Shown here: positions 3,597 through 23,072 of the stretch, piece by piece
Layout of the letters: each line of letters opens with the position of its first letter
Position numbering within the stretch: position 1 is the stretch's first letter
IMG/VR virus record: IMGVR_UViG_3300031963_000965
Coordinates: 1 to 23,072 of that record
DNA length: 23,072 bases
Source of the DNA: a virus
Direction: 5' to 3' (one strand)
The notes under the pieces: generated by a model
Told to the model about the DNA's origin: nothing
The model's input: only the letters and a program-made list of their open reading frames with translations
The model's database searches: none
Translations under genes and position numbers: made by a program

Positions 3597-3926
3597 TCAG
3601 TTGGTATAGTTAACAGTATCAACGCGGAACGTTGCACTAGTCGTACCAGCAACGCTCAACACGTCACCAACACGATAACCATCACCACCAGCAGCAACGG
3701 TCTGTCCAGTTACAGCGCCAGAGGCGACAGTAGTGGTCAGAGTACAACCACTACCGTTGATGTTGTCATCAGTAGTGGCTTTAGTGCCAGCAGTTTGACC
3801 AGTGCCAGCAGTGAGACGAGTCACGCTGACAACAGTGCCACCTTCGCGCCCAGGCTCAATAGGAGGACGCATGTAGGCAGTTTCACTTGTGGTGACGCCT
3901 ACACCGCCAACAGGTGCGAATCCCAT
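3597..3926 (-). CDS. Hypothetical structural protein after capsid (109 aa)
   Basis: This gene starts at ATG 3926 with the best ribosome-binding site in the region (TAAGGAG, seven bases before the start) and follows the capsid stop by 14 bases. The 109-residue product is beta-prone and poor in charged residues, with many Thr, Gly and Val, and holds a segment GGDGYRVGDVLSVAG (about 79-93) of a kind often found in phage structural and fibre-like proteins. The context (between capsid and terminator) and the strong start suggest an abundant virion protein such as a head decoration or short appendage protein. No sequence motif proves it. Confidence 0.75.
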   Translation of the reverse strand: MGFAPVGGVGVTTSETAYMRPPIEPGREGGTVVSVTRLTAGTGQTAGTKATTDDNINGSGCTLTTTVASGAVTGQTVAAGGDGYRVGDVLSVAGTTSATFRVDTVNYTN

Positions 3927-5037: not shown

Positions 5038-5117
5038 TAAAGGTTGTTGTTGATTGTCGTCTCTCCGACTGTCATGGCATTGGTTGTCGGCGTACCGGCC
5101 AGTGCCAATTCTTCCAT
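5037..5117 (-). CDS. Possible 26-aa micro-ORF in capsid leader
   Basis: An ORF of 26 residues starts at ATG 5117, inside the 3' acceptor strand of the tRNA-like element, and ends at TAA 5037. The peptide begins MEELALAGTPTTNAM and continues VGETTINNNL. Its composition looks protein-like, and it is linked by TAATG to another micro-ORF. There is no clear ribosome-binding site and its reading depends on the tRNA-like element not being cut out, so I treat it as a candidate only. Confidence 0.22.
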   Translation of the reverse strand: MEELALAGTPTTNAMTVGETTINNNL

Positions 5118-5179
5118 CGGGAATCGAACCCGAACTCTTCGGCATGTCGCCTATGTCCTGACCACTAGACTATGGAAGA
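5109..5179 (-). tRNA. tRNA-like element with degenerate anticodon arm (71 nt)
   Basis: The minus strand carries a perfect 7-bp acceptor stem (TCTTCCA / TGGAAGA), TA at positions 8-9, a D-arm GTCT-AGTGGTCA-GGAC, and a 5-bp T-stem TCGGG/CCCGA with the loop TTCGATT. The region between D-arm and T-arm is two bases too short for a normal anticodon arm: TAGGCGACATGCCGA can pair only as a stem with an A-G mismatch, and its loop has no U at position 33. No CCA is encoded. The D-arm resembles tRNA-Glu-type genes, but I cannot assign an anticodon. It could be a decayed phage tRNA, or a tRNA-shaped RNA kept for RNase P/Z cleavage in front of the capsid message. Confidence 0.5.
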
Positions 5180-10073: not shown

Positions 10074-10787
10074 CTAAGCATATTGGGGTAGATTTGGATT
10101 CGCATGCTCAAAGAATGCAGGCATCCGAGCACGTTGTGTTTCAATAAGTCCTTCTGCTTTTCCGGCGTACATCAAGCTGTCGCTTTGATCAAGCCAGAAC
10201 TGCTTATCAAGGTACTTGTTCTCAGACTTCTTGAGTGGTTGCATCACCCAGGCAATGGTTGCCTTCCTGAGGCGATCAAGAGAAGGAGATACAGTGAGAC
10301 CAAGCTCACGACATACCAAGCTATTCGTTGCCACATGTACTTGCTCATCCCTACTTATGTCGGCGGATACTGTTCGTAAGCCAGCGTCACCATTAAAGCG
10401 GAAGAAGGGGAGTAGAACGAAGAAAATTGCACGCTCGGCCACCATTGCTTTGAGGACCGTATGATCAGGATGCGCCGTCCAAGCATCGCGGAGTCGCATT
10501 GCTTCTGCTTCAGCAACTGGGTCAGTGCCGATAGCTTGGGCGATGTAACCGAGAGCCAAGTCGTGGTTAACTTCGTCTTTGATGTTGGATCGCAGTAAGT
10601 CCCGCGATAGCTCTGGAACTTCATTCTTCAATGCATCATCAATAAAGTCGCCAACAGGAAGTTCCATATGGCGTAGGGCGAGAGCCCGAAAGATGGTTTC
10701 TTCCGAGCCCTCAGCAAGCTGACCAGCAGTGGTTTGCACTGGGGTCCACTTACGTTTACGACTAAATAGTTTCTGATAGGGGTTCAT
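10074..10787 (-). CDS. nrdB: Class I ribonucleotide reductase beta subunit, cyanophage type
   Basis: This is the small metal-binding subunit that should generate the radical for the alpha subunit encoded just upstream. Starting at ATG 10787 (TAATG overlap with the alpha stop, GGAGAG five bases upstream) it has 237 residues, shorter than the roughly 320-380 of usual NrdB. Metal ligands can be placed: E42 (spacing of the first carboxylate), E72-x-x-H75 (DEVNHD), E118 (AERAIFF) and E148-x-x-H151 (RDEQVH). The residue four after H75, where the radical Tyr sits in E. coli NrdB, is Leu79. Tyr236 near the end could be the C-terminal radical-transfer Tyr. This agrees with the class I reannotation published for the Prochlorococcus phage P-SSP7 RNR. 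Such genes are often left as 'hypothetical'. Confidence 0.85.
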   Translation of the reverse strand: MNPYQKLFSRKRKWTPVQTTAGQLAEGSEETIFRALALRHMELPVGDFIDDALKNEVPELSRDLLRSNIKDEVNHDLALGYIAQAIGTDPVAEAEAMRLRDAWTAHPDHTVLKAMVAERAIFFVLLPFFRFNGDAGLRTVSADISRDEQVHVATNSLVCRELGLTVSPSLDRLRKATIAWVMQPLKKSENKYLDKQFWLDQSDSLMYAGKAEGLIETQRARMPAFFEHANPNLPQYA

Positions 10788-12190
10788 TACTCTCCGCAGT
10801 TGCAATCAGGAGCAGGGTCATTTAGTAGTTGCTCCAAGTAATCGTCAACTTCAGACTCATCGAGCGCAGCGTATGCACTGGACTTGTCTTGAGTGTCTCC
10901 CATTACCTGAAGCGAATAGTAAAGGGAGGTCTGCGGTGATTGCAGCCACTCCTCAATGAATGCTTCGTCATAGGTGATCACATCTGACCAGCTATTGAAC
11001 GAGTATCCATGAAGAAGTCCCGTCATATTCAGCAACCGGACAATACCGTTTGCTACTTTGAAATAATCATCCCAGCCAACTTCAGACGCGATCTCAACAG
11101 GACCGTAGTCAAAGCTCTGGACACCAAAGGTGCCGCTATCACGGTCCACTTGACGAGCAATGGGAGGAGCAATCTCAGGGGTTGTGGTGTACCCATCAAG
11201 ATCCTTATAGCGGTAGCTGCACGAGGCAGTAGGGGCAATGGCAAAGGCACGGACCATGTTGTTAGCCTTAGCGATTGCAGCCGCCTCACGGATACCAGCA
11301 TGGATCTCATGAGCTAGTACTGAAGCAGGAGTGTGTTCATGAGGACGGTTGTTGACGATGTGATCCAACGCCTCACCAAACTCCTTGTATGTCACCCCTT
11401 GTTGACGGAGCAGGTTGGAAAGTCCAAGCATTCCGAGACCGACTTGGCGATCAACCTCAGGAGTGAGGTATTCACCGCTGTCTCCAACACCTGTCTTTGC
11501 GTGGAGGTGACACAGTTCGGACATTCCACGTGAAAACGCAGATCGAATGTCATCAAATTGGCATGCCCCAAGGTTGACATGTTGCAGTAGACAGGTGCCC
11601 CGTGTTGGCAGGTACACCTCCAGGCAAACATTTCCGTAGATACGTTGTCCACGTTTATCGATTTTAGTTTTGTTGAGCCAAACGTCGCCGCGTTTGATGG
11701 CAAGAATTAGCGCTTCCTTGACTTCGTTCGTGGCAACATTCCACCAATGCTGGTTAATGTTGACGCAGCGCTTAACCCAAGGCAGCTCACTACGACTAGC
11801 AGTAATGAACTCAAGCACATCAGGATGGTTGAGATCAAGATGACATACAACTGCTCCATTTTTGTAGACACCACCCCTACGAAGAATCTCATTCAACGTT
11901 GAGTAGATCTTTGCAAACGAGACAGGACCCGACGCAACCAAGCCCTTACCATTCTCCGCCCCTTTAGGTCGCAACTTAGATAGATGTACAGCAACACCAG
12001 CTCCATATCGCAGAGCATGGCTAACAAAACGCCAGGACGCTTCGATTCCATTAGGTCCCTCCATAGTGTCTTCAACAACGAAGACTGTACAACTTACAGG
12101 AAGACGAGATGTCGGATCATCAATCCAACTTTGTACACGGCCAGTTCGTGCGATGAGTTCTTTTTCCACAGTAGTATCAGACAAGATCAA
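10787..12190 (-). CDS. nrdA: Ribonucleotide reductase alpha (catalytic) subunit, cyanophage type, class I
   Basis: The enzyme converts ribonucleotides to deoxyribonucleotides for phage DNA synthesis. Visible catalytic parts are Cys34 (LPVSCTVF), the N187-x-C189-x-E191 triad (GNVCLE), Cys200 as the redox partner, the IAPTASCS loop (318-325) and a CNCGE tail with Cys463/465 for reduction by thioredoxin-like donors. The Tyr424-Tyr425 pair in SLYYSLQV corresponds to the radical-transfer dyad of class I enzymes and argues against a B12-dependent class II enzyme, the label such genes often carry. At 467 residues it is compact and lacks an N-terminal ATP-cone. The start given is TTG 12190, overlapping the MazG-like stop by 14 bases; a GTG at 12169 is an alternative and neither has a clear ribosome-binding site. 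Confidence 0.9.
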   Translation of the reverse strand: MILSDTTVEKELIARTGRVQSWIDDPTSRLPVSCTVFVVEDTMEGPNGIEASWRFVSHALRYGAGVAVHLSKLRPKGAENGKGLVASGPVSFAKIYSTLNEILRRGGVYKNGAVVCHLDLNHPDVLEFITASRSELPWVKRCVNINQHWWNVATNEVKEALILAIKRGDVWLNKTKIDKRGQRIYGNVCLEVYLPTRGTCLLQHVNLGACQFDDIRSAFSRGMSELCHLHAKTGVGDSGEYLTPEVDRQVGLGMLGLSNLLRQQGVTYKEFGEALDHIVNNRPHEHTPASVLAHEIHAGIREAAAIAKANNMVRAFAIAPTASCSYRYKDLDGYTTTPEIAPPIARQVDRDSGTFGVQSFDYGPVEIASEVGWDDYFKVANGIVRLLNMTGLLHGYSFNSWSDVITYDEAFIEEWLQSPQTSLYYSLQVMGDTQDKSSAYAALDESEVDDYLEQLLNDPAPDCNCGE

Positions 12191-12557
12191 TCAGTGAAGG
12201 TTCGTAGTAGTTAGGCCCTTTGAGAATCTTTCCATCCTCACGACGTATGGGCTTGCCGTCTTCCCCAAGCTTGCTCATGTTGCTGGCATGCACTCGGTTA
12301 TATGCTGTTTGCAGATCCCAACTAAACGCTGCAGCCATCTGATGACACACGTACACCAGATCAGCAAGCTCCTTCAGTAGATGCTCACGTGCCCGCTTGT
12401 TCGTGATGTCTTCAAGTAGATCAAGGTATGCATGAGCAACCTCTAGGTGCTCCTCATCGATCAAATTCTGTTGCAGTTTCAAAGAGGTATTCGTCAGCCC
12501 AAGCGGCAGTTCGTACGCTCTCCGAAATTCGTGTGCTGCTGTTTCGTAGAAACTCAC
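12177..12557 (-). CDS. mazG: MazG/HisE-like nucleotide pyrophosphohydrolase
   Basis: The all-alpha NTP-pyrophosphatase signature is clear: an EE-x-x-E set in NLIDEEHLEVAH, E-x-x-D in KELADLVYVCHQM and an N-x-x-K element in HASNMSK, followed by GKILKGPNYYEP, usual in the cyanophage/PRA-PH-like group. Cyanophage MazG proteins hydrolyse (d)NTPs and have been discussed as modulators of host nucleotide or alarmone pools. I prefer the GTG at 12557 (VSFYETAAHEFRRAYELP), giving 126 residues, the usual size. The frame is open up to 12656, but that would bury most of the DUF3310 gene. Even so it overlaps that gene by 104 bases. It directly precedes the RNR genes. Confidence 0.85.
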   Translation of the reverse strand: MSFYETAAHEFRRAYELPLGLTNTSLKLQQNLIDEEHLEVAHAYLDLLEDITNKRAREHLLKELADLVYVCHQMAAAFSWDLQTAYNRVHASNMSKLGEDGKPIRREDGKILKGPNYYEPSLIDLV

Positions 12558-12735
12558 GTTCGTTTTCAAGGTAGTGGATTGCTTTAGTGAGGTCGTCAAT
12601 GGGGTCTGCTGTTGGCTTCTTTCCACAACGGCAGATATATTTGATTGCATTACCAAGATGGAAACTTAATTGTTGTTCTCGGATGAAGTCTCCGACTTTC
12701 CAACTTGATCCATAGTGCTCTGGGCTATCGGCCAT
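12454..12735 (-). CDS. DUF3310 family protein (93 aa)
   Basis: The first 63 residues carry the DUF3310 pattern: DSPEHYGSSWKVGDFI, then LSFHLGNAIKYICRCGKK, then DPIDDLTKAIHYLENE. Members are common in T7-like and other phages; some are annotated as nucleotide-kinase-like, but no activity is established that I can rely on. The last 30 residues are outside the domain and lie wholly in the overlap with the MazG-like gene. The start ATG 12735 lies inside the preceding small gene, with which it overlaps by 70 bases. Confidence 0.85.
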   Translation of the reverse strand: MADSPEHYGSSWKVGDFIREQQLSFHLGNAIKYICRCGKKPTADPIDDLTKAIHYLENEREFLRNSSTRISESVRTAAWADEYLFETATEFDR

Positions 12736-15104: not shown

Positions 15105-16376
15105 TTAGTGGGTGTTGGCCCACGTATTACCTCTGCCAGCTTCTGCTGCAATCGGAATTCGTAGGTTGTAGAACTCTCCAGCTTGTGCTGCCGCAAGTTC
15201 AAGGTTGAACATCAACGTGTCCGCATGAGTGGGGTTACATTCAAACTGAAGCTCATCATGGATAAATGCCAGTTGATCAGCTTCAATACTGAGTTGTTTA
15301 ATTTGGTCGTTGGCGATGACCATCCATCGCTTCGCAATGACACCAGCTCCTGATTGCAGGAGATAGTTCAGAGCTTTATGGGGTCCATCAACAGCGATAC
15401 GCCGTCCATCAATTGAATTGATGTGGCCAACTGATTGAACCTTTTTCTTGACGGCCGCAACAAGATCGCTAAGACCTTCAATTGCATCAAGATACGCTTG
15501 CCGTATCTCTGCCCCTTTCTTCTTTGCCTTATCGGCAGGAAGCTGAGGGTCATAGGAAAGTCCGATCTTTTCGTTCCCAGCCCCGTAAAGAAAAGCATAG
15601 GTAACGGTCTTGACGAGCTTACGACTAATGCCAATCTTGTCGGCATTAACTTGGTGTATGTCGCCATTAAGCAAGATCTCACCATAGCGGCCACCGTCAT
15701 AACGACTAAGGTAATGCGCGAACATCCGCAACTCGATGCCGCTAAGATCGGCCCCAACCATGCATAGTCCTGGAGTTGCAGTGAATAGTCGTCTGAATCG
15801 TTCATCAGATGGGACTTGGGCCAGATTTGGGTTTCGATGAGCGCAGCGATGGGTGTTAGTGGATACTGAGCAGTTGTGATGAACACGATTCTTACGAACT
15901 AACTTCAACCAGGCGTTAGTACCTTCCGATAGCATACCTAGTTGTTTGCTTAGTTCAAGACACTGAAGGAACTCAAGAGCAATCGGCGTACCAATGTCTG
16001 TGAGAACAACTTCATCGATGGTTGCCTTACCTTTATCAGTAAACTGATTAGGCTCCCAACCATAGAACTCCTTCATCACCCATGCAATGTGATCTCGACT
16101 GGTTGGGTTAAGATCCTTGATGCGCGTAAATGTGCCATCTGTGAAATATCCTCTGGTCGAGTTAGGACGACGAGGAGTAAACTCGCCTCCCTCAACGAAA
16201 GGATGCCGCTGTCTAAGAGATTCTTGCAGCGAATCAAGTGCAGATCGAAGTTCGCATTCCAGCTCATGAGCGGATCGTTCGTCGAAGTACCAGCCATGTA
16301 GTTGTTGCTTGGTGAGGATCTCAGCGACTCGATGTTCAAGGGTTACCCAATCAGGTATTTCTGGAAGTGACTCCAT
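15105..16376 (-). CDS. DNA polymerase, polymerase domain ORF (T7 gp5 C-terminal part)
   Basis: The ORF encodes the palm, fingers and thumb of a T7-type family A polymerase. Motif A is GADLSGIELRMFAH with D210; motif B is RKLVKTVTYAFLYGAG with R252, K256 and Y260 (Tyr discriminates poorly against dideoxynucleotides); motif C is FIHDELQ with H373-D374-E375. The thioredoxin-binding insertion of T7 appears shortened (about residues 60-95). I start it at ATG 16376 (MESLPEIPDW), 423 residues; the frame is open to 16409. The 3'-5' exonuclease domain lies in a separate ORF in another frame that overlaps by 34 bases. In T7 both domains are one chain, so this gene is split, frameshifted, or misread. 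Confidence 0.93.
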   Translation of the reverse strand: MESLPEIPDWVTLEHRVAEILTKQQLHGWYFDERSAHELECELRSALDSLQESLRQRHPFVEGGEFTPRRPNSTRGYFTDGTFTRIKDLNPTSRDHIAWVMKEFYGWEPNQFTDKGKATIDEVVLTDIGTPIALEFLQCLELSKQLGMLSEGTNAWLKLVRKNRVHHNCSVSTNTHRCAHRNPNLAQVPSDERFRRLFTATPGLCMVGADLSGIELRMFAHYLSRYDGGRYGEILLNGDIHQVNADKIGISRKLVKTVTYAFLYGAGNEKIGLSYDPQLPADKAKKKGAEIRQAYLDAIEGLSDLVAAVKKKVQSVGHINSIDGRRIAVDGPHKALNYLLQSGAGVIAKRWMVIANDQIKQLSIEADQLAFIHDELQFECNPTHADTLMFNLELAAAQAGEFYNLRIPIAAEAGRGNTWANTH

Positions 16377-16852
16377 AGTTTGTGTGTGACTTGAAGATCC
16401 TGTACGCAATAGTCCTCCATGTCTTGTGACCAGTTTTTCCAGTCAGTTTGTTTTGCAAAGCCACCCTTGTATTCACCAAGCCGGTAGCCATAAGCTTCAA
16501 GAGAGTGACGACCGCGAAGTTGAAGTGGCATGTGCGGCCAATTCTTAATTCGGTCGATCTCAAGAAGGTTAGGATGATACAAACGACTAAGAATAAGAGT
16601 GTCAAGTGTTCTTGGTGGCGCGAACCACGGGTAGAACTTCTGAATGACTGGGATGTCGTAGTTGATTACATTCTGGCCAATGATTGTCTCAGCACCTTCC
16701 AGCATCGTGATGGCACGAGCGATAGGTTCTTGAGTACCTTCATCGTTGAAGACATAAACCTCATTGTTACCAAGGTCTTTGATAGCAACACAGTGGATGG
16801 TGGTAAGGTTGTCGTACAGGCCGTCAGTTTCGATGTCAAAAAGAAGGTTCAT
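16343..16852 (-). CDS. DNA polymerase, 3'-5' exonuclease domain ORF (T7 gp5 N-terminal part)
   Basis: The 169-residue ORF holds the DnaQ-like proofreading domain of T7-type polymerase: FDIETDG (D6, E8), INYDIPVI (D66), LDTLILSRLYHPNL, HSLEAYGYRLGEYKGGFAK and YCVQDLQVT (D154). All expected metal-binding acids are present, so proofreading should be intact. It ends at TAA 16343 just where the single-chain enzymes continue into the polymerase domain, which here is in the -1 frame. ATG 16852 overlaps the TGA of the preceding small gene. It can act as a free subunit, or be the first part of a frameshifted single chain. Confidence 0.93.
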   Translation of the reverse strand: MNLLFDIETDGLYDNLTTIHCVAIKDLGNNEVYVFNDEGTQEPIARAITMLEGAETIIGQNVINYDIPVIQKFYPWFAPPRTLDTLILSRLYHPNLLEIDRIKNWPHMPLQLRGRHSLEAYGYRLGEYKGGFAKQTDWKNWSQDMEDYCVQDLQVTHKLWSHFQKYLIG

Positions 16853-22625: not shown

Positions 22626-23072
22626 TTAGATCCGAGTCATTGCAGCTAGTTGTGGCATCTGAGCCAGCAATTGTTGCAAAGCATTAACCTGATTCAGGAG
22701 CTGGTCATAGGACGGCTGAGCGGGTTGAGCGGGTTCCGGTGCGGGCTGGGTAGCTCGCTGGAGCTGAGCGTTGAGGGCCTGGTGAGCTTGGTTGCGGGCC
22801 ACATCCGAAACCTTGCAGTAACGAAGTGTGGTTTCGATCCGCTTGTGACCCATCAAGTCTTTGATGGTCATTGGCGGCACACCAGACTCATTAAGAAATG
22901 TGGCGTAGCTGTGACGCAGTGAATGAATGACGTGTTTCTCGTCAATTCCTACATAGTTGCGAATCTTATTGAAGGAGCGTCGTAACGAATCAGCAGAGCC
23001 GAAGTCATCGGCAAAGATGTGCTTCCTTGGGGGCTGATCACGTGTCCTTTCGATCATGAATGGAAGGATCCG
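22626..23072 (-). CDS. int: Tyrosine recombinase / integrase, C-terminal part (cut by window edge)
   Basis: The frame is open to the last base, so the N-terminal arm- and core-binding domains and the first catalytic Arg lie outside the window. The visible part has HSLRHSYAT (box II His-x-x-Arg), LMGHKRIE with the conserved His, and TTLRYCKV with the nucleophilic Tyr. These are the C-terminal catalytic residues of phage integrases. After the Tyr is an unusual extension of about 60 residues, first helical, then Pro/Gln/Ala-rich (QPAPEPAQPAQPSYDQLLNQ), ending with a likely amphipathic helix. A candidate attP lies about 140 bases downstream. The ATG at 23057 is probably internal. Confidence 0.93.
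   Translation of the reverse strand, partial: RILPFMIERTRDQPPRKHIFADDFGSADSLRRSFNKIRNYVGIDEKHVIHSLRHSYATFLNESGVPPMTIKDLMGHKRIETTLRYCKVSDVARNQAHQALNAQLQRATQPAPEPAQPAQPSYDQLLNQVNALQQLLAQMPQLAAMTRI

Follow-up and report, generated by a model that had tools for sequence, protein, structure and literature searches.

A class Ø ribonucleotide reductase from an uncultured phage fragment has leucine at the radical-tyrosine position and probably stores its oxidant on a metal pair

Ribonucleotide reductases (RNRs) of T7-like cyanophages have been treated in two studies that bear directly on the gene pair described here. A protein of the phage P-SSP7 was reannotated as an RNR beta subunit without the radical tyrosine, and a novel subclass of class I was proposed for it (Harrison 2019, PMC6370689). 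In that study Phe, Leu or Val at the radical site was counted as class Ic, and Cyano SP, the group of P-SSP7, and class Ic did not fall into one clade in the trees (Harrison 2019, PMC6370689). Under the name class Ø the group was set apart from both class I and class II, described as comprising the smallest RNRs and placed ancestral to these two classes (Burnim 2022, PMC9531940). Its marks are a short alpha that lacks an ATP-cone and has an NVCLE finger loop, a Tyr dyad and a CXC or CXXC tail, and a beta of ~240 residues, encoded by the adjacent gene and ending just after a Tyr (Burnim 2022, PMC9531940, PMC9669993). The betas were stated to have Phe or Leu at the radical site, and the small subunit can be unstable without metal (Burnim 2022, PMC9531940). 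In the studies consulted, neither biochemical activity nor metal content nor an EPR signal was found for any class Ø beta.

In the present study a virus record of 23,072 bases (IMGVR_UViG_3300031963_000965), the whole of which is called the window, was analyzed. It encodes a T7-like RNA polymerase, a primase-helicase, a family A DNA polymerase, endonuclease I and an integrase as well as both RNR subunits, the genes of which group by sequence with those of T7-like cyanophages. Together with a MazG/PRA-PH-like gene, the RNR genes form one nucleotide-metabolism block, and MazG is annotated at the corresponding place in the record of the phage S-CBP4. The features are listed below; the codons in the last line, counted from the ATG at 10787, are the crux of the finding.

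12177..12656, minus strand: nucleotide pyrophosphohydrolase-like (MazG/PRA-PH) gene, upstream of alpha (PF01503, 5.6e-5)
10787..12190, minus strand: RNR catalytic subunit alpha, 467 aa, TTG start (7URG, E 2e-261; PF02867, 1.8e-21)
10074..10787, minus strand: RNR small subunit beta, 237 aa, ATG start, predicted ferritin-like R2 core (phrog_6799, 1.5e-132)
10545..10577, minus strand: beta codons 71-81 (D71 E72 V N H75 D L A L79 G Y81)

The TAA stop of alpha and the ATG of beta overlap by one base (at 10787). Elsewhere in the window, the family A DNA polymerase (15105-16852, minus strand) is divided between two open frames that overlap, one of 169 aa that is exonuclease-like (16343-16852) and one of 434 aa with the polymerase part (15105-16409); the P-SSP7 record mentions a possible split polymerase or programmed event. 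A tRNA-Cys gene (5109-5179, minus strand; Rfam tRNA, 49.4 bits) displays the unusual anticodon ACA, and the integrase-family gene (22626-23057, minus strand; PF00589, 7.6e-14) is situated at the end of the fragment.

The translation of alpha carries the Tyr424-Tyr425 dyad exactly where an earlier note on this DNA had placed it, in addition to the catalytic C189 within the NVCLE finger-loop motif, the active-site pair C34/C200 and a C-terminal C463-x-C465 (CNC tail); an ATP-cone was not found in alpha, PF02867 being the sole profile above the cut-off. Comparison with the class Ø alpha of S-CBP4 (PDB 7URG, cryo-EM) gave an E-value of 2e-261 over residues 9-467, whereas B12-dependent and class I enzymes, next among the solved structures, reached only ~1e-9. 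Among the relatives the NVCLE finger loop was present in 218 of 238 alphas, that of the window included, CXC or CXXC at the C-terminus in 237 and the Tyr-Tyr dyad in 236, the two exceptions being a frame that ends early and a sequence with X at the dyad. Beta lies directly downstream of alpha in 302 of the 310 loci whose examined DNA includes alpha. The window pair combines the short alpha, NVCLE, the CNC tail, an adjacent beta of 237 residues and L79 and is, judged by its sequence, a class Ø (Cyano SP, 'If') RNR of a T7-like cyanophage, alpha being assigned by its match to 7URG. The earlier note had called the enzyme class I by sequence; this label oversimplifies, as alpha belongs to class Ø, its nearest solved relatives outside class Ø include B12-dependent class II enzymes, and the group was separated from both classes (Burnim 2022). 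Membership in the group of the P-SSP7 RNR, which the note had also suggested, is borne out by a beta that is 75% identical and has the same Leu, and the reannotation and subclass proposal to which it referred are indeed those of Harrison 2019 (PMC6370689).

In the 237 residues of beta the ligands E42, E72, H75, E118, E148 and H151, all at the positions given earlier, lie in two E/D+EXXH metal motifs, and the chain closes with Y236, A237 and the stop. This set cannot be due to chance, as the six residues are invariant across 261 distinct homologues, save for one X at 151. Leu79, and Tyr81 two residues further on, were likewise confirmed in the translation. The distance H75+4 agrees with the rule for R2 proteins (E. 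coli H119/Y123, Met-included numbering), and a HMMER profile of 79 betas paired H75, L79 and Y81 with H123, F127 and Y129 of the class Ic R2 of Chlamydia trachomatis (1SYY; PDB 2ANI is its F127Y mutant), a pairing that is weak taken alone (whole-sequence E 0.15). Leu79 occupies the radical-tyrosine position. The observation of Leu in place of the radical Tyr is correct but not new, since Burnim 2022 (Phe/Leu for the whole group) and Harrison 2019 (new subclass) came earlier.

The relation of beta to R2 proteins became visible only through profile and structure comparison. Single-sequence searches of PDB and Pfam with the window beta gave no match, and Ribonuc_red_sm (PF00268) matched 31 of 79 relatives (best 1.8e-5) but not the window beta. 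With hhalign, the beta family and E. coli NrdB alone were aligned over just 10 columns, the global mode being meaningless; against nine R2s (E 0.013) E118, D147, E148 and H151 were paired with E. coli E205, D238, E239 and H242 (Met-included numbering), in the second half of beta only. An R2 fold is predicted for beta: each of the 50 structural matches listed for its modelled structure (high confidence, mean pLDDT 91.9) is a class I R2, with Z 18.7-20.4 and, in the majority of rows, 211-222 superposed residues. The class Ic Mn/Fe R2 (4D8F, Z 20.2) is level with the others, and with rows less than Z 2 apart the comparison does not separate R2 subclasses.

About 345 loci and records yielded the 261 distinct full-length betas, which are related sequences found with seeds from the class Ø group itself; several 'bacterial' loci among them are probably phage contigs in metagenome bins. 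Alignment with P-SSP7 and other cyanophage homologues, a check proposed in the earlier note, revealed the same Leu in P-SSP7 and not a single Tyr at position 79, which is Leu in 234 betas and Phe in 27, with three changes on the tree (FastTree). Position 81 is more variable (Tyr 243, Phe 14, Met 2, Leu 1, Asn 1), with 11 state changes. Sixteen of the 18 betas without Tyr81 adjoin an alpha that has both the catalytic Cys and Tyr-Tyr; in the DNA examined around the remaining two, no alpha was found. D71, W14, D147 and Y236 are invariant (261/261), and besides Y236 no Tyr of beta is.

Several loci of the sample are noteworthy in their own right. The class Ø beta of Calothrix membranacea FACHB-236 (L106:4001-4717), with all ligands and Asn81, is an orphan beta; no alpha was found in its neighbourhood or in the 8.8-Mb genome. 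In Microcystis phage Mic1 (L086, 3001-3738) an NrdB-annotated beta stands alone among small genes of the opposite strand, and no alpha is annotated within 3 kb of it. A class I R2 (PF00268) was sought in three genomes bearing relatives, and none was found. In the S-CBP4 locus (L082, KC310804.1; 3001-3713) the annotated beta stops at 3618, and the record may carry a frameshift in beta, because the tblastn match extends past this end, as a second piece, to 3713.

Where the radical is stored if position 79 is Leu can be narrowed by these data. The earlier note had left the choice between the metal centre and another residue such as Tyr81; storage on the metals remains the most likely part of this proposal, and Tyr81 is contradicted. 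Retention of Tyr in 243 betas speaks for Tyr81 as a substitute for the absent Tyr at 79, but its replacement in 18 of 261, through 11 changes on the tree and in 16 cases beside an intact alpha, makes it a very unlikely radical store. Moreover, on a predicted uninterrupted helix (residues 59-86) Tyr81 lies at 240 degrees from H75, as compared with 60 for E72 and 40 for L79, and would therefore face away from the metals. Judged by sequence, Tyr81 is dispensable, and we give next to no credence to storage on it. A literature search turned up nothing on Tyr129 of the Chlamydia enzyme, and this precedent was left unused. With Tyr81 ruled out, the metal pair and an invariant Trp are left as candidates for the radical store. 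Storage on another protein residue, for instance W180 (261/261) or W103 (260/261), or on a modified residue seems quite improbable: the conservation of both Trp would suit such a role, but they could be ordinary core residues of the helical bundle, and a stable Trp radical is not known to us as the store in any class I R2.

A different kind of alternative, which we consider very improbable, is that alpha is class II-like and driven by adenosylcobalamin, with the ferritin-like gene dispensable. Old annotations label alpha class II, and outside class Ø the B12-dependent 1XJE (1.1e-9) matches as strongly as the class I enzyme 6DQW (1.2e-9). Yet neither a beta nor a Tyr-Tyr dyad would be expected in class II, and the window has both; the dyad, absent only from the two exceptions named above, stacks beside the catalytic Cys in the structure of S-CBP4 alpha (Burnim 2022, PMC9531940), and a neighbouring beta with invariant ligands is almost always present.

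The window thus probably encodes a class Ø RNR with a metal-stored oxidant and without a store on Tyr81. Beta would be a minimal R2-type ferritin-like protein that holds two metal ions by its six ligands, and with Leu79 the oxidising equivalent would most likely reside on these two metals, in the manner of class Ic (Mn/Fe) and class Id (Mn2). We infer this as the best explanation because the ligands and W14, D147 and Y236 are invariant; the first ligand is Glu, as in Ic and Id (Harrison 2019 table, PMC6370689). After activation by a presumably oxygen- or superoxide-derived oxidant, the oxidising equivalent may be passed via D147/W14 to Y236 of beta, from there to Y424/Y425 and finally to C189 of alpha, which would then start ribonucleotide reduction. 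W14, D147 and Y236 probably correspond to W48, D237 and Y356 of E. coli, as suggested for D147 by hhalign, for W14 by spacing and a W-x-P motif, and for Y236 by the remark of Burnim 2022 on the C-terminal Tyr.

Residue 46, four positions after the first ligand E42, divides the group into two: Gly occurs in 134 of the 261 betas, Lys in 123, Ala in three and Arg in one. The Lys46 betas form one branch (125 members, 123 with Lys, support 99), Lys46 is present in all 27 Phe79 betas, and the window beta has Gly46 (codon at 10650-10652). P-SSP7 is a further example of a Gly46 beta, Syn5 and S-CBS4 of Lys46 betas. In characterised class Id proteins a lysine that arose from Gly, and was proposed to attract superoxide, is also situated at first-ligand Glu +4 (E170/K174, E67/K71; PMC6754362, PMC8463856). 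As the word lysine is absent from the main texts of Harrison 2019 (PMC6370689) and Burnim 2022 (PMC9531940), the split seems undescribed there, and Lys at E42+4 in about half of the group is what is new here relative to these main texts. It is regarded as a lead, not a mechanism. By analogy, the Lys46 half might be activated as Mn2 with superoxide, as in class Id, and the Gly46 half as O2-activated Mn/Fe or Fe2, which would refine the metal-storage explanation and is not an exclusive rival to it. The single well-supported branch, the identical offset, the origin of the class Id Lys from Gly and its proposed attraction of superoxide favour this idea; on the other hand, the class Id helix unwinds and brings the Lys inward, whereas for class Ø the analogy is one of sequence, and Mn2 is assumed as well for those class Id proteins that lack the Lys (PMC6754362). 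That class Ø betas are a tyrosine-free, metal-oxidant group with two activation types split by residue 46 is therefore put forward tentatively and is on balance doubtful; if true, the class Id lysine arose twice. In any case, the Lys/Gly split offers two natural enzyme types for comparison in one assay.

Compared with known systems, the radical-site Tyr of classes Ia and Ib is replaced by Leu79 in the window beta and is present in none of the 261 betas. The class Ic R2 of C. trachomatis (Mn/Fe) likewise lacks this Tyr (F127 = L79), has Glu as first ligand and shares the R2 fold (Z 20.2 to the model), but its second-sphere Glu119 corresponds to Asp71, invariant in the 261 betas and fitting no known subclass, and it is ~110 residues longer, with ~13% identity. 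Class Id NrdB (Mn2(IV,III); F. johnsoniae, L. blandensis, F. ignava) shares the Glu first ligand, an alpha without ATP-cone and a metal-centred oxidant, as is proposed for class Ø beta; it retains the Tyr, unused as a radical, where the window beta has Leu79, and its lysine position is Lys in the K46 half of class Ø and Gly46 in the window. The P-SSP7 beta agrees in its ligands and second-sphere residues (E, E, H, E, E, H, D, D) and differs only in that its numbering is offset by one residue beyond the first ligand. Closest stands the class Ø RNR of S-CBP4 (7URG, PMC9531940), to which alpha is matched at E 2e-261 and beta is ~81% identical; both pairs display the Tyr dyad, NVCLE, the CXC tail, Phe/Leu at the radical site and a short beta ending just past a C-terminal Tyr, and the window, in which no functional difference from S-CBP4 was seen, contributes a new sequence, that of a fragment of an uncultured phage.
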